A stretch of 30,816 nucleotides of DNA from a virus. The stretch spans positions 1 to 30,816 of IMG/VR virus record IMGVR_UViG_3300025127_005103; one strand, written 5' to 3'. Every line of letters starts with the position of its first letter. The first letter of the stretch is position 1. Below, one piece after another: positions 10,909-28,874 of this stretch. The notes under the pieces are model-generated. The model saw only the letters and a list, made by a program, of their open reading frames with translations, was not told the origin of the DNA and did no database searches. The position numbers and the translations under genes were made by a program.

Positions 10909-11481
10909 TTATCTGAAACATTTTCCATGAACCCAACAGACTAATGCCCATCTTTCGCCATGTGTCAAAGGGTTCACTTTATGAGGTAAGAAACTAGGAA
11001 ATAATAATATCTGATTCATTTCAAGATTTATTGTCTGTATGCCATTATTGAAAACTAGAAATTCTCCACCCTCAAAGTCATCATTCAAAAGAATACTAAA
11101 ACCTAACTTTCTTGTAGAGGCATCTCCATTTCCCATGTCTACGTGCCAATCATATCCTGCTGATGGAGCAGTATATTTCAATAACTGTGGTCTTTCAAAA
11201 ATGCCAGATAAGTCATAATTGTATTCTTGATTATACATTATTATCAGATTCAAAATATATTCATCAACCCAAGAATAATCTTCATGTATTGGATAAACAT
11301 CAACATTTCTAATTGATATAACTTTTTCTTTCAAAGTTGAATTTGATTTTTGAACTTGACCAACAACTGGATTGATCTCATTTCTTAAATCAAAAACCTT
11401 TTGGCAAAATGATGAATCAACATAATCAAGCATAACTCCATGTTGAGTTTCATTTATTTTTGGTGGAATAGCTATTGTCAT
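10909..11481 (-). CDS. 2OG-Fe(II) oxygenase (prolyl-4-hydroxylase-like)
   Basis: A 190-residue non-haem iron dioxygenase. The double-stranded beta-helix motifs are present: His113 and Asp115 in YDWHVDMGNGD, His167 in FLPHKVNPLTHGER and Arg177 as the likely 2-oxoglutarate anchor. LGFSILLNDDFEGGEFLVFN is the typical core strand pair. Such enzymes hydroxylate protein, nucleic acid or small-molecule substrates using oxygen and 2-oxoglutarate, and are common in marine phages. ATG 11481 has no good ribosome site; ATG 11433 (MLDYVDSS) follows GGAG but only two bases away. The gene is last in the P4 unit after a 109-base leader. Confidence 0.8.
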   Translation of the reverse strand: MTIAIPPKINETQHGVMLDYVDSSFCQKVFDLRNEINPVVGQVQKSNSTLKEKVISIRNVDVYPIHEDYSWVDEYILNLIIMYNQEYNYDLSGIFERPQLLKYTAPSAGYDWHVDMGNGDASTRKLGFSILLNDDFEGGEFLVFNNGIQTINLEMNQILLFPSFLPHKVNPLTHGERWALVCWVHGKCFR

Positions 11482-13824: not shown

Positions 13825-14730
13825 TTAGTTTGATTCTAACTCTTTCCATTGTTTTGAGTTAAGCATTGCTTTTACTGCATTTTGTCTTTTGTGCTGAATT
13901 ATATGAGTTTTTGCATCTGCTTTTCCAACTAGCTTATCAATATGAGTAGACCAATATGTTGCTGATTGGTATGCACACCATAGAGAACCTTTCGCACCAT
14001 TCCTACCATATTCGCCTTTACCATGAATCTGAGTAACTTCTTGCTCATAAAGATTCATTAGAACCCCAAATTGTTTTTGATTGGTTTCAATATCAGATTC
14101 AATATACTTCTGAATATTACTATCTTTTTTGCATATGGTCTTTTTGAACATTTCAGCAATATCATCATCTTCTACGTTTGTGTACCACCATTCATTGTAT
14201 TTCTGCACATCATTGTTCGCTAATTTAACGGCATTAAAAATCTTAGCATTAGAAGCATCAACATCAAAATGTAATGAGTGTCTGCTAGAACTGTATGCTA
14301 GTTGTTGTCCAGAAACTAAAGTATTAAAGCAAACTTTATTCAACCAACCGAAAAATGATTGAAACTTCCATCTGCCATTATATGAGTTTCTAGCTATATA
14401 TTTAAGCATCAAATCATGATCTCCAACTTTTGCAGTATGTCTTGGTAAAGTGATTTCCATTTTTGCCATTGCACCAAGTTCATAACTCTGAACATTTATT
14501 TGTGCATCTGTAAAATCAATACCTCCTGCAAACATATTATCAACGGCACCTCCAAAGGCATCTGAATGTTTTATTGGTTTATATCTTGTCTTGCACATAC
14601 CAAGAAAAGTATTACTATCGGTTCTTCTAATCTGTTTATATTCCGTATTAGGAATAGTCGGTATGTCCATGATTGTTATAGGAAAATCTATTATTTCCAT
14701 TTTGTCTTTTAGTAATTTTGTATCTAACAT
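13825..14730 (-). CDS. DUF932 family protein
   Basis: A 301-residue protein of the DUF932 type, common in phages and plasmids and often near recombination or replication genes. Typical features: NTFLGMCKTRYKPIKHSDAF near residue 40, then YELGAMAKMEITLPRH, a G(D)HDLMLKYIARNSYNGRWK segment and FFGWLNKVCFNTLVSGQQ near residue 125. C-terminal residues 235-300 are helical. The biochemical role of the family is not settled; it has been likened to plasmid-type primase or replication accessory proteins. AAGGAGG before the ATG; last gene of the P5 unit. Confidence 0.75.
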   Translation of the reverse strand: MLDTKLLKDKMEIIDFPITIMDIPTIPNTEYKQIRRTDSNTFLGMCKTRYKPIKHSDAFGGAVDNMFAGGIDFTDAQINVQSYELGAMAKMEITLPRHTAKVGDHDLMLKYIARNSYNGRWKFQSFFGWLNKVCFNTLVSGQQLAYSSSRHSLHFDVDASNAKIFNAVKLANNDVQKYNEWWYTNVEDDDIAEMFKKTICKKDSNIQKYIESDIETNQKQFGVLMNLYEQEVTQIHGKGEYGRNGAKGSLWCAYQSATYWSTHIDKLVGKADAKTHIIQHKRQNAVKAMLNSKQWKELESN

Positions 14731-15535: not shown

Positions 15536-15787
15536 TTAAAATAATTTTTGTTGTGATTTATCCTCTGGTTTCCAAGCATAGTAAAAGAGAGTATTCATTC
15601 TTTTTACAAATTTATCTGGAACTTGAGTTTTCTTGATGGGATTGTTCAATTTAGAAAAAGGAATTATCATTGAATTGCTCTGATAATTTATTTGTAAATC
15701 AACTTTCTGTTTTAATGCCTTTTCAACATATCTTCCATGAACTGGCACTAATCCACCAAATAATGTTTTTACCTCTTTGATAATCAT
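15536..15787 (-). CDS. Small early protein of the P6 unit
   Basis: An 83-residue protein. ATG 15787 (MIIKEVKTLFGG) is chosen because a perfect AAGGAGG lies four bases upstream and it forms an ATGA overlap with the previous gene; the ATG six codons earlier has no ribosome site. Contains LVPVHGRYVEKALKQKVDLQ and a C-terminal YYAWKPEDKSQQKLF. No known signature; last gene of the P6 unit. Confidence 0.55.
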   Translation of the reverse strand: MIIKEVKTLFGGLVPVHGRYVEKALKQKVDLQINYQSNSMIIPFSKLNNPIKKTQVPDKFVKRMNTLFYYAWKPEDKSQQKLF

Positions 15788-16281
15788 GCTACCTCCTTGA
15801 ACCATTGTGGTTTCTCTGAAAAATTGTATCTAGCAAACCTTGATTTATCTCTTATATAAAAACCTCTATATGCTTTTATTGGGAAAAACTCATTTGTCTT
15901 AAGGTCATCGTGTCCAGAAAAACATTGAGGGTGTCTTGTCATTTTGCCAGATGGTATAAATCTTGAGCCATTTATCAAAGCAAGTAATAACTTCCTAGAA
16001 TCATGTGTTCTTTTGTATCTAATGGTATATTCATCAAACATACATCTTGCTAAATTCCAAGCAAATAAATAATTATCACGATTCTCTCTCGCCCAAATAC
16101 TGCATGGGTGCTTTACATGAACTGGCTTGTAAAGTTTTTTTTCTTCTGCATAATCTGGTGCATGATGCCAAATAGCGGAACATAACATTTGAGTTTCTTC
16201 TAATGGCATTTTGACAATATGTTGATCACACAAAGACTCTGCAATTTGCTCTGGTGTTTCTTCTATAATAAATCTATTCAT
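15784..16281 (-). CDS. Conserved phage protein, CDxHxxKMxxE family
   Basis: A 165-residue protein of a family widespread in phages, with CDQHIVKMPLEETQMLCSA near residue 18, VHVKHPCSIWARENRDNYLF near 54, CMFDEYTIRYKRTH near 80, and a C-terminal AYRGFYIRDKSRFARYNFSE then WF. Conserved His, Cys and Glu residues look like a metal or catalytic site. Some databases link this family to pyrimidine-dimer glycosylase-like proteins, but I cannot confirm that here. ATGA overlaps on both sides couple it to the SleB gene and the gene downstream. Confidence 0.6.
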   Translation of the reverse strand: MNRFIIEETPEQIAESLCDQHIVKMPLEETQMLCSAIWHHAPDYAEEKKLYKPVHVKHPCSIWARENRDNYLFAWNLARCMFDEYTIRYKRTHDSRKLLLALINGSRFIPSGKMTRHPQCFSGHDDLKTNEFFPIKAYRGFYIRDKSRFARYNFSEKPQWFKEVA

Positions 16282-21596: not shown

Positions 21597-23294
21597 ATGA
21601 GTATAAATGAAAAGCTAATGAGTGAGGGGATAAAAGTAAACTATTCTCTTGATCAGCAAAAAGTAAGATGTCCAAAGTGTTCACATACTAGAAAAAATAG
21701 TAGTGAGCCTTGTTTGAGTGTAAGTATAGATAATGAGAAAGCACTATGGAGATGTCATCACTGTGAATGGGAAGGTTCAGCTTTTTCTGACAATGAAACA
21801 AAAACATTCAGAAAAGCAGAAGTTGTTCCAATAAAATCTCCAAAATTACCAGAGGATAAAAAGCTATCAGATAATGCTTTATCATGGTTAGGCAGTAGAA
21901 ATATAAGTATAAAAACGGCACAAGATTTTGGTTTATATACACACAATGGCAGTTTATGTTTCCCATATTATCTTGATAATGAAGTTGTGAATGTTAAATA
22001 CCGAACAAGTAACAAAGAGTTTAGACAAGAAAAAAACTCATTAAGAACATTATATAATATTGATAATGTAAAAAAATATTGGGAAGAAACAAACAAAAAA
22101 GAGATTATATTTGTAGAGGGCGAAATGGATGTTTTAGCCTTATACGACTCTAATTTTACTAATGTTTGCAGTCTTCCAGATGGTGCACCTAAAGAACCAA
22201 AATTTAAAATGAATGATAAAAGGTTTTTCGCATTTGAACAAAGCCAATGGATATTTGATGCCGAACAAGTAATAATAGCTACCGATAATGACCAAGCAGG
22301 TGATGCCCTTAAACTTGAGTTGTTGCACCGTTTCGGTAGGGATATATGCAAAGTTGTCCATTTTCCTAAGTATAATGATAAACAGTTAAAAGATGCAAAT
22401 GAAGTTTTAATACATTTAGGAGCGGATAAGTTAAAGGAATGTATTTACAATGCTGAAGAATTTCCAATTAAAGATATACATACGGCAAATGAATATAAGA
22501 ATGTAGTTCAAAATATATATGATGGTAATGTTCAGAGAGCATTTTCTACTGGGTATGAAAAATTAGACGAAATTTATAAAATTATGCCAAGCACATTTAA
22601 TTTAGTAACTGGTATTCCTAATCATGGAAAAAGTAATTTTTTAGACCAAATATTAATGAACTTAGCAGAGCAACAAGATTTTAAATTTATTGTATATTCA
22701 CCAGAGCATTCAACACCAAATCATTTAAGAAGACTGCTAGAGAAAAGATGCAGAAAACCTTTTGATATAGGACCATACCCAAGAATATCGCAAGAAGAAC
22801 TTAATTCTGGTATGGATTTTTTAGACAGGCATTTTAAATTTATTGAAAATAGCGATGATATACCAACAATAGATTATATTTTAGCAAAAACAAAGGTTGC
22901 AAAGCTAAGATACGGAATACATGGATTAATTATTGACCCATTCAACCAAGTATCAGCAACAAGAGAAAATAATAAAAGAGAAGATGAGCATATAAGAGAT
23001 ATTATTGCTAAATGTCAACAATTCGCTAGAAATCATCAAATAGTTGTTTGGATGGTTGCACACCCTCATAAATTATCTAGAAATGATAGTGGAGTTATAC
23101 CACCACCAGATTTATATCAAGTAAGTGGCTCTGCTCATTGGGCAAACATGGCAGATGTTGGAATAGTTATTCATAGAGATTTTGAAGAAAACAAAACAAC
23201 TATTATTACTAGAAAAATTAGAGAACAAGGGGTTTATGGAGAAATTGGCTCTAAGGATTTCTTCTTTAATTACAAAACGAGGTGCTACGAATGA
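21597..23294 (+). CDS. Primase-helicase (T7 gp4-like)
   Basis: A 565-residue replicative enzyme. Zinc ribbon CPKC (25-28) and CHHC (53-56) for template recognition; Toprim primase core with Glu174 in FVEGEMDVLALYD and Asp230/Asp232 in IATDNDQAGD; RecA-like helicase with Walker A GIPNHGKSN (339-347), Walker B Asp447 in GLIIDPFNQV, and WMVAHPHKLSRN after it. It both lays RNA primers and unwinds the fork. Together with the initiator and DUF1064 nuclease it forms the replication module. No DNA polymerase lies in the window, so the host polymerase or a gene elsewhere is used. Confidence 0.93.
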   Translation: MSINEKLMSEGIKVNYSLDQQKVRCPKCSHTRKNSSEPCLSVSIDNEKALWRCHHCEWEGSAFSDNETKTFRKAEVVPIKSPKLPEDKKLSDNALSWLGSRNISIKTAQDFGLYTHNGSLCFPYYLDNEVVNVKYRTSNKEFRQEKNSLRTLYNIDNVKKYWEETNKKEIIFVEGEMDVLALYDSNFTNVCSLPDGAPKEPKFKMNDKRFFAFEQSQWIFDAEQVIIATDNDQAGDALKLELLHRFGRDICKVVHFPKYNDKQLKDANEVLIHLGADKLKECIYNAEEFPIKDIHTANEYKNVVQNIYDGNVQRAFSTGYEKLDEIYKIMPSTFNLVTGIPNHGKSNFLDQILMNLAEQQDFKFIVYSPEHSTPNHLRRLLEKRCRKPFDIGPYPRISQEELNSGMDFLDRHFKFIENSDDIPTIDYILAKTKVAKLRYGIHGLIIDPFNQVSATRENNKREDEHIRDIIAKCQQFARNHQIVVWMVAHPHKLSRNDSGVIPPPDLYQVSGSAHWANMADVGIVIHRDFEENKTTIITRKIREQGVYGEIGSKDFFFNYKTRCYE

Positions 23295-23851
23295 ACATTG
23301 AACAAATTACAGTCACAGAGCTTAGACCATATGAAAAAAATGCAAGAATACATAGTGATGACCAAATAAATCAACTTGTTAACAGTATGAAAAAATGGGG
23401 TTGGACAATACCAATACTTATTGATGAAGATAATAATATACTTGCAGGGCATGGTCGCTATGAAGCAGGAAAAATACTAGAGTATGATAAAGTTCCTTGT
23501 ATAAGAACCAACGGTTGGACAGAGCAACAGAAAAAAGCATACATAATTGCTGATAATAAACTTGCAGAGAACTCAAGTTGGGATATGGGTTTGTATTTCA
23601 ATGAACTTAAAAACCTTAATGATGAGGGATTTGATTTATCATTCATAGGTGTTGATGATTGGAAATCAATGGAGTTTGCACCAATGTTAGAACCTCAAAC
23701 TAACTCAAGTATTATTACAGAAGATGATTTTGGTGTTGCGGAAAATAATATAAGCAAACAAATAGAAGGGGCATCAAACCAATTGCATAAGGATGGCATA
23801 AAAGTTATGTGTCCAAAATGTGCAGAAGAATTTATTGTTTCTGGGTATTGA
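23291..23851 (+). CDS. ParB-like protein with C-terminal CPKC
   Basis: A 186-residue protein with a ParB/Srx-type N-terminal domain: LRPYEKNARIHSDDQINQLV, then GWTIPILIDEDNNILAGHGR (box with GHGR at 53-56) and EAGKILEYDKVPCIRTNGWT. In phages this domain often sits on or next to DNA methyltransferases and other modification enzymes. The C-terminus carries VMCPKCAEEFIVSGY, only half of a zinc site. ATG 23291 is chosen: GAGGTG lies six bases upstream and it ATGA-overlaps the helicase stop. It opens the unusual block that runs to 27090. Confidence 0.75.
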   Translation: MNIEQITVTELRPYEKNARIHSDDQINQLVNSMKKWGWTIPILIDEDNNILAGHGRYEAGKILEYDKVPCIRTNGWTEQQKKAYIIADNKLAENSSWDMGLYFNELKNLNDEGFDLSFIGVDDWKSMEFAPMLEPQTNSSIITEDDFGVAENNISKQIEGASNQLHKDGIKVMCPKCAEEFIVSGY

Positions 23852-23852
23852 T

Positions 23853-24497
23853 ATGTTAGAGCATAAACATTTACTTCTAATGGCAGATATTCATAAGCCA
23901 ATCAAAAATGAAGAGCAAATTATTAGATGGATTAAAGATTTAGTATCTAAGCTAGATATGAAAATATTAATTCAGCCACAAGCAAAGTATTGTGATACAG
24001 AGGGCAATGCAGGAATAACTTGTATTTGTGCAATAGAAACATCTCACATTGTTTTGCATATGTGGGATGAAATAAACCCTGCAAAATTACAATTAGATAT
24101 ATATACTTGTTCTAATTTAGATTTACCGCTTGTATGGAATAAAATAAGGGAACTAGAGCCATTTGATATTAAATATAAATTCTATGATAGGGATGGTGAC
24201 TTTGTGCTTTTGAATGACAAAGAAGAAAGAAGAATACAAGATAATCTTATTTCAAATAAATGGGTATTTGCTAAATCAATGCCAAAGATTCCTCATTGGT
24301 ATAGTAGAAGTTTAGATTGGGAATCAGAGGACAAATTTGCAGAAGCAGTTGATTTGATAAATAAAAATGGGGTCAAAGAAAAATTTGGCAGTAAATATTA
24401 TACTTATTATCATCACAAAGATTATAAATATTGGACAATGGAAAACAAAAGCACCCCAAGTCATAAGCATATCCTAATAAATAGAGCAAAGATATGA
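23853..24497 (+). CDS. speD: AdoMet decarboxylase (SpeD-like) fused to a phage C-terminal domain
   Basis: A 214-residue protein. Residues 1-120 match bacterial S-adenosylmethionine decarboxylase: EHKHLLLMADIHKP, then ICAIETSHIVLHMWDE and LQLDIYTCSNLD. The self-cleaving serine (Ser64), His69 and Cys86 are kept, so a pyruvoyl enzyme that makes decarboxylated SAM is likely; the Glu usually before the serine is Thr63. Residues 137-214 are a different domain, known to me from other phage proteins: VFAKSMPKIPHWYSRSLDWE, then NKNGVKEKFGSKYYTYY and YKYWTMENKS, ending ILINRAKI. ATG 23853 follows the ParB stop by one base. The fusion ties dcSAM chemistry to the modification-like block. Confidence 0.75.
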   Translation: MLEHKHLLLMADIHKPIKNEEQIIRWIKDLVSKLDMKILIQPQAKYCDTEGNAGITCICAIETSHIVLHMWDEINPAKLQLDIYTCSNLDLPLVWNKIRELEPFDIKYKFYDRDGDFVLLNDKEERRIQDNLISNKWVFAKSMPKIPHWYSRSLDWESEDKFAEAVDLINKNGVKEKFGSKYYTYYHHKDYKYWTMENKSTPSHKHILINRAKI

Positions 24498-25735
24498 AGA
24501 TATTCTTAAATGAAAATGTATGGCAAGTTGGTCTTGAAAGAATGGAATATCTCTTTGATGAATTTGAAAATATAGTAGTTTCATTTAGCGGTGGTAAGGA
24601 TTCTACTGTTACTCTTGAATTAGCACTACAAGTTGCAAGAAAAAGAAATAGATTACCTCTTTCAGTTTACTTTCTTGACCAAGAGGCAGAATGGAGTGCA
24701 GTAATTGATTATGTTAGAGAAGTTATGAGCAGAAAAGAAATAAAACCAATTTGGGTTCAAGTACCAATATTTCTGCCTAATTCAATTTCTCAAGAAGAAC
24801 CTTTTCTCATTACATGGGAAGAGGGCAAAGAATGGATGAGAGAAAAAGACCCACTAGCGATTAAAGATGGTATTGTTTTAAAAGAACAAACAAAAGGAAA
24901 AGAACCAAAAGCAGGTTATTGGTATGATTATTTTGTAAAATCTATAAATCAAATTTTCCCAGAACAATCTGCTTGTTTTCTAGCAGGAATGAGAGCAGAA
25001 GAAAGTCCTCAAAGATTAGCAGGATTAACAAGTGGACAATGTTATAAACATATTACTTGGGGAAGAATATTAGATAAGAAAAAAAATCAATATACATTTT
25101 ATCCATTATTTGATTGGAAAACAAGTGATATTTGGAAAAGTATTCATGAAAATAATTGGAAATATTGCAAAATATATGATGAGTTTTTTAGATATGGTCT
25201 TCCAATAAGAGACATGAGAGTATCAAATCTAACACATGAATCAGCACTTAAGAGCTTATTTTATCTACATGAATTAGAAGGAGATACATGGGAAAAGCTA
25301 AATAAAAGATTAAAAGGAATAAATCAAGCAAAGCACATTGAAAAAAAGAACCTATTAGAATCTAAAAAATTACCATTTATGTTTAAGTCTTGGAAAGAAT
25401 ATAGAAATTATCTTACTGATAAAATTATAACAACACAAAAACATAGAGATGTATTTTATAAAGCATGGAAAAAAATGGACGAATTCTATGATGATATGAA
25501 AACACCATCAGAGCTTCATCAGAAACAAATTAGGTCAATTCTCGTAAATGATCTAGAACTAGTAAAATTAAATAACTATTTACAAACACCATCAGTAATT
25601 GTTTATCGTGAATGGAAAAAGGGAAACCTTTTAAATAGAGCAAGAAATCCAAATCATCTAAATCAGATAAAAGACCATTACTTATCAGATGATTACAGAA
25701 ATAGAATGAAAAAAATATTTGGGAGTAAGGCATAA
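24494..25735 (+). CDS. PAPS-reductase-like PP-loop ATPase (IbrA/COG3969-like)
   Basis: A 413-residue protein of the PP-loop ATP pyrophosphatase superfamily: SGGKDS at 32-37, VYFLDQEAEWSAVIDYVREV, then FLAGMRAEESPQRLAG and FYPLFDWKTSDIWKSIHEN. Its length and C-terminal part (ESALKSLFYLHELEGDTWEK) match IbrA / COG3969 (DUF3440-containing) proteins rather than sulfate assimilation enzymes. Relatives such as DndC adenylate a substrate before sulfur transfer. IbrA normally pairs with the ParB-like IbrB, which is encoded two genes downstream. It overlaps SpeD by 4 bases and the transferase by one. Confidence 0.8.
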   Translation: MKIFLNENVWQVGLERMEYLFDEFENIVVSFSGGKDSTVTLELALQVARKRNRLPLSVYFLDQEAEWSAVIDYVREVMSRKEIKPIWVQVPIFLPNSISQEEPFLITWEEGKEWMREKDPLAIKDGIVLKEQTKGKEPKAGYWYDYFVKSINQIFPEQSACFLAGMRAEESPQRLAGLTSGQCYKHITWGRILDKKKNQYTFYPLFDWKTSDIWKSIHENNWKYCKIYDEFFRYGLPIRDMRVSNLTHESALKSLFYLHELEGDTWEKLNKRLKGINQAKHIEKKNLLESKKLPFMFKSWKEYRNYLTDKIITTQKHRDVFYKAWKKMDEFYDDMKTPSELHQKQIRSILVNDLELVKLNNYLQTPSVIVYREWKKGNLLNRARNPNHLNQIKDHYLSDDYRNRMKKIFGSKA

Positions 25736-26394
25736 TGGATTTAGATAAGATTTATGATAATGTTGCTAAGGATTATGATAATAAATATCAATCAGCAATT
25801 CATAAAATAGAAGATTATATTATTAGCCATATATTAACAAGTCAAATCAAGTCAACTGATACTGTCCTTGATTTAGGATGTGGAACTGGTCATGTTATCA
25901 CTTTAGCCAATTTAAATTATATGCAGTATTATGGTGTTGATTTCTCTCAAGGTATGATTGACGATGCAAAAAGTAAATACAATAATTATACTTTTGTAAA
26001 TCAAGATATTACTAAAATGGATTATATAAAATATTTTAATGTTATTTTAGCAATATATGGTCAAGTTAATTATATTGGTATAAAAAAATTCTGTGATATT
26101 ATACAAAAACACGGAAGCAAAGACATCAAATATATGGCAGTAGTATATGCTAAAAATGGTCATGAAGATTATTCATATACACAAAATTATCAAAACTATT
26201 TCACGAAACAAGAAATAAAAGAAAGTATGTTACAAGAAGGATTTGATGCTTCTGTAAAAGATTTCTCATTTAATGGTAAACAAGAATTTACTGGACAACA
26301 ACAATTAGAAAGAACTTTATTTAGTAAAGACAAAGAAACAAATAATTGTAAATATTATATTATTACAAATTTTGATATTTTTAGGAAGGTTTAA
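25735..26394 (+). CDS. Class I SAM-dependent transferase between IbrA and IbrB
   Basis: A 219-residue Rossmann transferase: motif I VLDLGCGTGH (44-53), the acidic strand-2 end YYGVDFSQGM, and NQDITKMDYIKYFNVILAIY as motifs II-III. The first 40 residues are helical. It lacks a target-recognition domain or the NPPY/PCQ motifs of DNA methylases, so the substrate is not DNA in any obvious way; it may modify a nucleotide, protein or small molecule. Because SpeD makes decarboxylated SAM two genes upstream, an aminopropyl transfer instead of methylation should be considered. ATG overlaps the IbrA-like stop (TAATGG). Confidence 0.75.
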   Translation: MDLDKIYDNVAKDYDNKYQSAIHKIEDYIISHILTSQIKSTDTVLDLGCGTGHVITLANLNYMQYYGVDFSQGMIDDAKSKYNNYTFVNQDITKMDYIKYFNVILAIYGQVNYIGIKKFCDIIQKHGSKDIKYMAVVYAKNGHEDYSYTQNYQNYFTKQEIKESMLQEGFDASVKDFSFNGKQEFTGQQQLERTLFSKDKETNNCKYYIITNFDIFRKV

Positions 26395-27090
26395 ATGAGT
26401 ATAGAAAACATAAAATCATCTATTGAAAATGATTTAGAAAATTTATCAGAAGATGAAAAAATTGAATACATTGAGCAATTAAAAACAAAATTGAACAAAA
26501 TGACAAGTTTAGGAGAGCAACCAATAAATTTTATACGATGGGTTGATGTTGATAAGGTTCAAGCTAATGACTATAATCCAAATAGTGTAGCAGGGCAAGA
26601 AATGAGTCTTCTTTACACATCAATAAAGCATGATGGATATACTCAACCAGTTGTTACTATTTTTGATGAAAAGATAGGTAAATACATAATCATTGATGGT
26701 TTTCATAGATATTTTACTTGTAAGAATAATGAAGATATCAAGGAAAGAAATAAAGGAAGATTACCTATAGTAGTTCTAGAAAAAGATATTAATCAAAGAA
26801 TGGCATCAACTGTAAGGCATAATAGAGCAAGAGGAAAGCACTCAATTGATGGTATGTCCAATATGGTATTTAAGATGTTAGATAATGGTTGGAAAGATGA
26901 AGATATATGTAATCATTTAGGTATGAAACCAGATGAATTATTAAGATTAAAACATATTACTGGATTTAGTAAGTTATTTGAAGATGTAGAATATTCTAAG
27001 TCTTGGACTACAAAAAATCAGATATTATTAAAAAAACAACAACAAGAGTTGGAAAATTCTCAAAATAACGATATAAATGATAGTAAGTGA
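26395..27090 (+). CDS. IbrB-like ParB/Srx-fold protein
   Basis: A 231-residue protein. Residues 1-40 form a charged helical lead; then INFIRWVDVDKVQANDYNPN, IIIDGFHRYFTCKNNEDI (box with DGFHR at 101-105), DINQRMASTVRHNRARGKHS and a helix-turn-helix near 165-190 (GWKDEDICNHLGMKPDELLR). This is the IbrB type of ParB protein, which co-occurs with IbrA. The ParB/Srx fold can bind or hydrolyse nucleotides. AGGAAGG before the ATG. It probably works with the PP-loop protein at 24494. Confidence 0.75.
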   Translation: MSIENIKSSIENDLENLSEDEKIEYIEQLKTKLNKMTSLGEQPINFIRWVDVDKVQANDYNPNSVAGQEMSLLYTSIKHDGYTQPVVTIFDEKIGKYIIIDGFHRYFTCKNNEDIKERNKGRLPIVVLEKDINQRMASTVRHNRARGKHSIDGMSNMVFKMLDNGWKDEDICNHLGMKPDELLRLKHITGFSKLFEDVEYSKSWTTKNQILLKKQQQELENSQNNDINDSK

Positions 27091-27112: not shown

Positions 27113-27673
27113 ATGACAATTAAATTAACTGAAACTTTAAAAACTCAAATTAAATCAGAATTTGTTGAGGGTTTGGTTGATAATGATAATAAAAGAAACT
27201 ATCCAAGTATAGATGAATTATCAAAAAGACATAATGTAGCAATTGCTACTCTTTACAGACACTCAAAAAAAGAAGATTGGCAGAAAGCTAAAAATCAATA
27301 TCAAAGTAAAATTGAAGAAAAGCTAAAAGAAAGAAGAATGAAAGATTTTGTAAGAGCATCAGAAAGATTAGATGAAAGTTGCTTACAAATATCACAAGGT
27401 CTTTTAAACTCTGTTGGAAGAAAACTTCAAAGAATGATGGAAAAGCAAAATGAAAATCCATCATATGAAGGCTATCCTAATAGTGAATTAAGAGAAATGT
27501 CTAATACAGTTATTAATGCCCAAAGAATAGGTAAACTTGCTTTGGGTGAAGCTCAAGAAATATCAAAGGTTTCTGCAAATGTTACAAATGACGAAGACTT
27601 CCAATTCTTGGTCAACGAGATACAAGAAATTAACAGAGAAAGGTCAAAGAGGGCTAATCACACTATCCAATGA
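27113..27673 (+). CDS. terS: Small terminase subunit
   Basis: A 186-residue helical protein with an N-terminal HTH (NYPSIDELSKRHNVAIATLY, then RHSKKEDWQKAKNQYQSK) and a long helical middle, followed by MSNTVINAQRIGKLALGEAQ. TerS recognises the packaging site and regulates TerL. It lies just before TerL, whose start overlaps its last 95 bases in another frame. A 22-base gap separates it from the IbrB-like gene, so it shares its transcript. Confidence 0.8.
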   Translation: MTIKLTETLKTQIKSEFVEGLVDNDNKRNYPSIDELSKRHNVAIATLYRHSKKEDWQKAKNQYQSKIEEKLKERRMKDFVRASERLDESCLQISQGLLNSVGRKLQRMMEKQNENPSYEGYPNSELREMSNTVINAQRIGKLALGEAQEISKVSANVTNDEDFQFLVNEIQEINRERSKRANHTIQ

Positions 27674-28874
27674 TTGGCACAAAACTGCTCGTGATCAACA
27701 ATTGACACCTCATGGTGATTGGGATATTTGGTTAATACTTGCAGGAAGGGGTTGGGGTAAAACAAGAACTGGTGCAGAGGACATTGCTTTCTTTGCATTA
27801 TCAAATCCAGAGAGTATTTGTGCAGTTGTTACACCAACGTTTGGAGATATAAGGAGAGTTGCATTCGGTGGTCCTAGCGGACTTATGAGCATAATTCCTA
27901 AAGAATGTTTGTTAAGTGGTCGTGGTCAAGGATATAATAGTAGTTCAGCAGAAATAAGATTATATAATGGAAGTAAAATAATGGGATTCTCAGCTACAGA
28001 GCCAGATAGATTAAGAGGTCCACAATTTCATAGAGCATGGTGCGATGAATTAGCAGTTTGGCAATATGCAGATACCTTTGACCAATTAATGTTTGGTTTA
28101 AGATTAGGTACAAAACCTCAATGTATAATTACGACAACACCAAAACCAACTCCACTTATTAAGAGTTTAGTCAAAAGGAATAATATAGTTGTAACAAAAG
28201 GAAGTACTTTTGATAATGCACCTAATCTTGCACCATCTGCTCTAGCTATGCTAAAAGAAAAATATGATAATACAAGATTAGGAAGACAAGAACTATATGC
28301 AGAAATTGTAGATGATGTTGAGGGTGCTTTATGGACACCATCAATGATTGAAGCTAAGAGAATACCAAAATTAGAAGAACAATTACAAAGAATTATAATA
28401 GCAGTTGACCCTGCGGTTACAAACCAAGAAGGTAGTGATGAAACTGGAATTATCGTGTGTGGAAAAGGTTTTGATAATAGATACTATATTTTAGAAGATT
28501 TATCTGCTAGAATGTCTGCAGATGCTTGGGCTAATGTTGTTGTAAATACATTTTATAAGTATGAAGCAGATAGAGTCATAGCAGAAGTTAATAATGGTGG
28601 TGATTTGGTTGAAAGGCTTTTAAGAACAGTTGATAGTTCTGTACCTTATAAGGCAGTAAGGTCAAGTAAAGGAAAGCTTGTAAGAGCAGAGCCAATATCA
28701 GCACTTTATGAACAAGGAAAAGTTAGTCATGTTGGCACTTTTTCTAAATTAGAAGATCAATTGTGTTCTTATACTTTAGATAGTAGAAGTTCACCAGATA
28801 GGCTTGATGCTCTAGTATGGGGGTTGACTGAACTCAGCAAATCGTCTGGTCAAGCGATGTGGAGAGTATCATAG
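27579..28874 (+). CDS. terL: Large terminase subunit
   Basis: A 431-residue packaging motor. ATPase: Walker A AGRGWGKT (55-62), Walker B and catalytic Glu at Asp156-Glu157 (AWCDELAVW), coupling motif IITTTPKPTP. Nuclease: Asp277 in IIAVDPAVTN, ADRVIAEVNNGGDLVE, and Asp407/Asp410 in SPDRLDALVWGL. It pumps DNA into the procapsid and cuts concatemers. The start is uncertain; ATG 27579 (AAAGG nine bases upstream) and ATG 27588 are possible. Both lie inside terS. Confidence 0.92.
   Translation: MLQMTKTSNSWSTRYKKLTEKGQRGLITLSNDWHKTARDQQLTPHGDWDIWLILAGRGWGKTRTGAEDIAFFALSNPESICAVVTPTFGDIRRVAFGGPSGLMSIIPKECLLSGRGQGYNSSSAEIRLYNGSKIMGFSATEPDRLRGPQFHRAWCDELAVWQYADTFDQLMFGLRLGTKPQCIITTTPKPTPLIKSLVKRNNIVVTKGSTFDNAPNLAPSALAMLKEKYDNTRLGRQELYAEIVDDVEGALWTPSMIEAKRIPKLEEQLQRIIIAVDPAVTNQEGSDETGIIVCGKGFDNRYYILEDLSARMSADAWANVVVNTFYKYEADRVIAEVNNGGDLVERLLRTVDSSVPYKAVRSSKGKLVRAEPISALYEQGKVSHVGTFSKLEDQLCSYTLDSRSSPDRLDALVWGLTELSKSSGQAMWRVS

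Follow-up and report, generated by a model that had tools for sequence, protein, structure and literature searches.

A conserved phage gene cassette built on IbrA-IbrB with exchangeable tailoring enzymes, and its candidate role in DNA-base hypermodification

We analyzed a stretch of viral DNA, an IMG/VR virus record of 30,816 bases (hereafter the window), in which five consecutive genes occupy positions 23291-27090. They encode, in order, a ParB-fold protein (ParB1), a SpeD-like decarboxylase fused to an uncharacterised small domain (Cdom), an IbrA-like PP-loop protein, a class I S-adenosylmethionine (SAM)-dependent transferase (MT8), and an IbrB-like protein. A reading-frame check from the upstream primase-helicase gene (21597-23294) through IbrB gave junctions of -4, +1, -4, -1, and 0 bases, in agreement with the unbroken chain described in an earlier reading of these letters alone (the sequence-only reading), and family searches upheld its ParB, SpeD, phosphoadenosine phosphosulfate (PAPS) reductase/DUF3440, SAM-methyltransferase, and ParB-like assignments. 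A 22-base gap separates IbrB from a gene in the terS position (27113..27673, +), directly downstream of the cassette; next come the terminase large subunit gene TerL (27672..28874, +), which is outside the cassette, and a portal gene. The chain thus leads into terS/terL as had been claimed, with TerL and portal identified by family searches. The TerS label, for which profile support is weak, is based on position and on recurrence ahead of TerL, as this family stands beside TerL in 32 loci.

ParB1 (23291..23851, +; 186 residues) matches phrog_620, phrog_498, and PF02195, has ParB/Noc proteins as its PDB matches, and scores 1.6e-30 against the PADLOC model MTase_II. In 63 relatives, residues G53 and R56 and the C-terminal CPxC motif (C174-P175-x-C177) are each conserved to 95% or more. 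ParB1 aligns with the ParB part of the phrog_498 DNA methyltransferase, and a methyltransferase from the related locus L002 (loci are given L numbers) aligns with the methyltransferase part; these alignments place ParB1 in the same family as the ParB domains fused to phage N6/N4 DNA methyltransferases. IbrA (24494..25735, +) joins a PAPS-reductase-type PP-loop domain (PF01507, 2.9e-17) to DUF3440 (PF11922, 4.3e-07), both past the cut-off, and its SGGKDST motif is kept in nearly all of 64 sequences. Matches to the TilS_N and DndC profiles are weak, and no alignment column exceeds 62% cysteine in the same 64 sequences. Because the catalytic or Fe-S cysteines required of a PAPS reductase or DndC are not conserved, sulfur transfer is unlikely, and with it the DndC-type chemistry raised in the sequence-only reading. 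IbrB (26395..27090, +) is a ParB/Srx-fold protein that matches phrog_2159, with a sub-threshold PF02195 hit and a weak match to SbnI; its DGFHRY and RHNRARGxHS motifs are nearly invariant across the relatives aligned, and the IbrB of Streptococcus phage CHPC1148 is 54% identical to it. MT8 (25735..26394, +), with motif DLGCGTG, matches Methyltransf_25/31 and phrog_4752 ('tRNA methyltransferase'). Examined as a possible spermidine synthase by the Spermine_synth profile and a GGGDG-type motif, it returned methyltransferase families only.

The SpeD-Cdom gene (23853-24497) encodes a 214-residue fusion whose N-terminal part (23853..24194, +) is a SpeD-like pyruvoyl-dependent decarboxylase domain with the motif ETSHIVLHMWDE and a PF02675 match at residues 15-109. 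S64, H69, and C86 are invariant in 14 sequences; a pyruvoyl serine, a histidine, and a cysteine are the active-site residues named for class 1b SAM decarboxylases (PMC10407285). A proline is reported to distinguish these enzymes from arginine decarboxylases (PMC10407285). At the position we read as the proline of WPE, present in S-PM2, the window SpeD has WDE; phiN3, tested as a SAM decarboxylase, also lacks this proline, which calls for caution with the criterion. Among named proteins, its nearest relatives are the SpeDs of pelagiphages, one of them that of HTVC201P, a tested arginine decarboxylase (PMC9992855), to which the window SpeD is 52.6% identical over 114 residues with the ETSH...WDE motif in common. 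The absence of this proline, together with a transferase unlike SpeE, makes it improbable that the window SpeD decarboxylates SAM for an aminopropyl transferase, contrary to the SAM decarboxylation first suggested; lacking the proline, it probably makes an amine. DNA aminopropylation by decarboxylated SAM is disfavoured in the window on the same grounds, and would be conceivable for a second SpeD type (L080 and L087), which keeps the proline. In a SpeD tree of modest support with some long branches, at least three groups are used in the cassette. L087-type SpeD lies within it in 21 of its 23 IMG/VR loci. Pelagiphage SpeD genes adjoin ribonucleotide reductase or other genes instead, so the SpeD-cassette link is specific to cassette phages. 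Two IMG/VR contigs of 92 kb and 90 kb (L135 and L136) carry L087-type SpeD outside the cassette, in a different gene order common to both.

The arrangement recurs widely. An IMG/VR scan with the IbrB alignment returned at least 593 relatives, of which the best 80, those most similar to the window IbrB rather than a random sample, were used for locus analysis; a 95% IbrB identity cut and a requirement for at least 3.5 kb of upstream sequence left 49 non-redundant loci. Of these 49, 48 contain IbrA, 48 ParB1, and 39 Cdom, and one or more tailoring families are present in 48; TerL could be recognised in 39 loci and a gene in the TerS position in 37. The median distance between neighbouring cassette genes is -4 bases. 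The window order ParB1, SpeD-Cdom, IbrA, MT8, IbrB is found again in L017; L011-L013 add a DPPW11 gene. In the nearest relative, L002 (75% in SpeD-Cdom), a DPPW methyltransferase gene separates SpeD from IbrA. Given this recurrent order and the near-universal IbrA and ParB1, the grouping is not chance, and the lack of co-occurrence that would have spoken against a system was not seen. Of 2278 locus pairs, 2268 have IbrB proteins that share at least 55% identity, and in 1259 of those 2268 no TerL similarity is detected; the cassette is therefore common to unrelated phages and strongly constrained. Its placement ahead of terS/terL also recurs in unrelated phages. The five genes had been read as a unit, and the unit is conserved, but its core consists of ParB1, Cdom, IbrA, and IbrB, to which SpeD and the transferase add exchangeable tailoring functions. 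A full cassette (MT8, IbrA, Cdom, DPPW methyltransferase, IbrB) is present in bacterial genome G686 (L156), where it probably sits in a prophage. Amidoligase (PF12224) and gamma-glutamyl cyclotransferase genes often adjoin the cassette on the opposite strand (L053, L006, L011, L017, L021, L042, L051, L063, L092, and L096), and are possibly a companion pathway.

Between ParB1 and IbrB, the tailoring slot holds one, two, or three enzymes drawn from a restricted set: SpeD, SAM-dependent methyltransferases, SET proteins, GNATs, glycosyltransferases (GTs), DPPW proteins resembling N6/N4 methyltransferases, and a 2-oxoglutarate (2OG)-dependent oxygenase. Among the 49 loci we counted GT5 in 23, GNAT12 in 17, DPPW11 in 14, MT8 in 12, SpeD in 10, OG20 in 7, DPPWd15 in 6, and GT28 in 4; the window pair is SpeD and MT8. 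DPPW, a form of the catalytic (D/N/S)PP(W/Y/F) motif of phage N6/N4 DNA methyltransferases, does not vary within the DPPW11 family, to which L002 and other related loci contribute; the window cassette itself has MT8 instead. One-sided tests over 28 pairs, uncorrected for multiplicity and for relatedness, suggest that GNAT12 avoids MT8 (p = 0.002), SpeD (p = 0.008), and OG20 (p = 0.04), and that OG20 is accompanied by GT5 (7 of 7 loci, p = 0.003). OG20 was not recognised by the profile libraries. By Foldseek, its model (predicted local distance difference test, pLDDT, 91) matches AspH and prolyl hydroxylases, as well as a nucleoside-antibiotic hydroxylase, with probability 1.00, at low TM-scores by query of about 0.4-0.5, and H84, D86, and H130 form an invariant HxD...H triad. 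This combination of a double-stranded beta-helix and triad makes OG20 a probable 2OG-Fe(II) oxygenase.

Cdom (24219..24494, +), a distinct domain some 85 residues long that makes up the C-terminal part of the SpeD gene product, has the signature 'FAKSMPKIPHWY ... YWTM ... INRAK', and is a stand-alone gene in most cassettes. The SpeD fusion noted before is real, and what is fused is this reusable domain, found elsewhere with other enzymes: SpeD-Cdom fusions occur in the window, L002, L011-L013, and L017, Cdom-MT8 fusions in L005, L054, L055, L057, L058, and L065, Cdom-SET fusions in L021 and L031 (with a Pfam match confirming the SET domain of L021), and a fusion to a GNAT-like domain, by a weak match, in L035. 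In L094 a GT is fused to IbrA. Because they are fused to Cdom, and a GT to IbrA, the tailoring enzymes are tied to one process; the fusions and the recurrence also reject SpeD as an unrelated neighbour. Nothing in Pfam, PHROGs, or PDB provides a known fold or family for Cdom: its AlphaFold (AF2) model (pLDDT 88) matched no PDB fold at E below 0.35. The single clear match, in BFVD, is nameless, and the 'phages' collection yielded no cultured phage with Cdom.

Genomes were scanned for Cdom with a 5-row alignment. The domain is rare in bacteria, occurring in 2 of 295 genomes in an order-level survey and in 9 of 395 and 2 of 294 in phylum-level surveys, with the centre genome counted each time. 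Bacterial Cdom lies directly behind McrC in L110 (4069-8240) and directly behind GmrSD of two different PADLOC types in L111 (5311-8240) and L113 (190-2399). In L107 (7126-8234) it is found downstream of McrC, next to an ADP-ribosylglycohydrolase gene, and in L109 (995-2823) and L112 (6974-8550) it adjoins or overlaps such genes (PF03747). Bacterial Cdom-MT8 fusions occur in L157-L161, of which L159-L161 stand beside a protein whose PD-(D/E)xK label is weak (PF14281, E = 0.018, under the cut-off). We take this proximity to genes of type IV, modification-dependent restriction to connect Cdom with modified DNA, on the model of the EVE domains of type IV systems (PMC7641849), although the loci are few and some of their Cdom proteins are closely related.

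We propose, with somewhat better than even confidence, that this is a modular phage cassette for DNA-base hypermodification. ParB1 would bring the machinery to DNA, the IbrA PP-loop would activate a carbonyl or carboxyl group by adenylation, while IbrB, through its SerK/SbnI-like DGxHR motif, may give a second ATP-dependent activation. The activated base could then gain an amine- or amino-acid-like side group. Cdom may recognise the modified base and carry to it the tailoring enzymes, which would decarboxylate, N-methylate, acylate, hydroxylate, or glycosylate the group to yield a phage-specific final product. In the window this would involve a SpeD-like decarboxylase, probably acting on arginine, ornithine, or the linked amino acid, and thus serving as amine source or as editor of that amino acid, together with a SAM-dependent methyltransferase. 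The product would most likely serve against restriction and be made before packaging. The target is presumably a nucleic acid, and DNA is favoured, on indirect evidence, because of the ParB1 and DPPW methyltransferase families and the position of Cdom beside type IV restriction genes. Phage bases derived from amines or amino acids are known (putrescinylthymidine, 5-(2-aminoethyl)deoxyuridine [5-NedU], and 5-(2-aminoethoxy)methyldeoxyuridine [5-NeOmdU]; PMC6449724), and glycine is ligated to carboxymethylcytosine in a pathway with ParB genes near CmoX (PMC12783734). A more specific version strikes us as doubtful: IbrA and IbrB would ligate an amino acid onto a DNA base through the PP-loop, and the slot would edit it by SpeD decarboxylation, SET or MT8 N-methylation, GNAT acylation, or OG20 and GT5 hydroxylation plus glycosylation. 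Cdom would then be a new class of reader, delivering enzymes in phages and standing beside type IV restriction genes in bacteria. Lysidine formation is the tRNA counterpart of such a ligation.

Several observations weigh against hypermodification of DNA. We know of no modified nucleoside from any cassette-bearing phage, and no sequence-recognition domain was recognised in the cassette. Cultured phages with a plain IbrA-IbrB pair, for example those of Streptococcus and Flavobacterium, lack Cdom and the tailoring set. Fewer than half of about 17 bacterial Cdom loci are near restriction-type genes, so the reader role is thinly based, and the ADP-ribosylglycohydrolase neighbours in three loci are left unexplained by it. 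SET, GNAT, and AspH/prolyl-hydroxylase-like folds have proteins or amino acids as substrates more commonly than DNA. Modification of a virion, terminase, or host protein to which Cdom binds is accordingly a serious rival, as the tailoring set suits the editing of an amine or amino-acid side chain; the SET-Cdom and GNAT-Cdom fusions fit it, as do an OG20 fold nearest to AspH and prolyl hydroxylases that is always paired with a glycosyltransferase, and the adjoining terS/terL. We nevertheless hold it to be unlikely, given that TerL is not conserved among cassette phages and would hardly be their common substrate, and that ParB1, the DPPW methyltransferases, and the type IV neighbours of Cdom point to DNA.

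An RNA such as tRNA, or the free nucleotide pool, is another target to which we give little credence. PP-loop enzymes such as TilS modify tRNA, and the weak TilS_N and DndC matches of IbrA and the phrog_4752 match of MT8 would agree with this, but the ParB1/DPPW and Cdom associations lead to DNA modification and restriction, and a tRNA gene search found none in the window. That SpeD simply makes a polyamine for packaging or host takeover among chance neighbours draws on stand-alone phage SpeD enzymes that make agmatine or putrescine (PMC9992855) and on the pelagiphage SpeD genes, which sit by ribonucleotide reductase or other genes and not in a cassette. The SpeD-Cdom fusion, its use of the same slot in several lineages, the strict co-occurrence, and the overlapping genes make this account quite improbable. 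IbrAB are named as co-activators in E. coli. Their label in databases, 'co-activator of prophage gene expression', would suit a purely transcriptional role of IbrA-IbrB and ParB1 with incidental chemistry; the invariant PP-loop and the catalytic tailoring enzymes constantly alongside leave that role very little room.

Comparison with described systems sets the proposed DNA-modifying cassette apart from each. Phage and prophage IbrA-IbrB pairs have the same PAPS-reductase PP-loop with DUF3440 and the same IbrB ParB/Srx fold in adjacent genes, but those of cultured phages stand without Cdom or tailoring enzymes, whereas here the pair is the core of a larger cassette. Dnd/Ssp phosphorothioation likewise places a PP-loop enzyme (DndC) beside a ParB-like protein (DndB) (PMC10853773); in contrast, our IbrA has no conserved cysteine, and we noticed no DndA, DndD, DndE, or Ssp partner in the families that recur as neighbours. 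The pathways of phages phi W-14, M6, and ViI build amine or amino-acid side chains on bases by kinase-type activation and amine transfer (PMC6449724), a logic only proposed for the cassette, and use a 5-hydroxymethyldeoxyuridine kinase and an alkylamine transferase rather than PP-loop and ParB/Srx proteins. Protein scans of the window, a fragment for which no dedicated search was made, showed no such kinase, alkylamine transferase, or deoxyuridine monophosphate hydroxymethylase. The CmoX/CmoY carboxymethylcytosine pathway of phage S-B43 also combines a SAM-derived handle with a ligase and a frequent ParB neighbour (PMC12783734), but relies on a C5 SPPC transferase and an AMP-forming ligase where the cassette has N6/N4-type DPPW or class I methyltransferases and a PP-loop protein. 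Unlike phage SpeD homologs that have become arginine or ornithine decarboxylases (PMC9992855, PMC10407285), the window SpeD is fused to Cdom inside a cassette. EVE/YTH readers of type IV restriction are, like Cdom, small domains beside McrBC, GmrSD, and enzymes (PMC7641849), but the Cdom model has no PDB fold match and so did not prove to be a PUA-like EVE/YTH reader.

Hypermodification clusters are already known, and the IbrA-IbrB core, reader-like domain, and use of SpeD would represent a new form of them. We found no description of the cassette in the literature searched, with incomplete coverage of subscription papers; within that coverage the unit appears undescribed, in line with the sequence-only reading, to which no described system that adds a SpeD and a transferase between IbrA and IbrB was known. 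Phage and prophage genomes have long carried IbrA-IbrB annotations, to our knowledge without a known chemistry. A conserved core with exchangeable tailoring makes their role testable, as each cassette type predicts a different product. If DNA is the substrate, the cassette would be a combinatorial and widespread means of hypermodifying phage DNA, in view of the at least 593 IbrB relatives in IMG/VR; SpeD-type decarboxylases would gain a role outside polyamine metabolism, and Cdom would be a new domain possibly used on both the phage and the host side of the conflict.

Elsewhere in the window, distant from the cassette, a second 2OG-Fe(II) oxygenase gene (10909-11481, -; PF13640, phrog_61) might contribute a further hydroxylation or have an unrelated auxiliary function. 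The minus strand also encodes a DUF932 protein (13825-14730) and a weakly pyrimidine-dimer-glycosylase-like protein (15784-16281).

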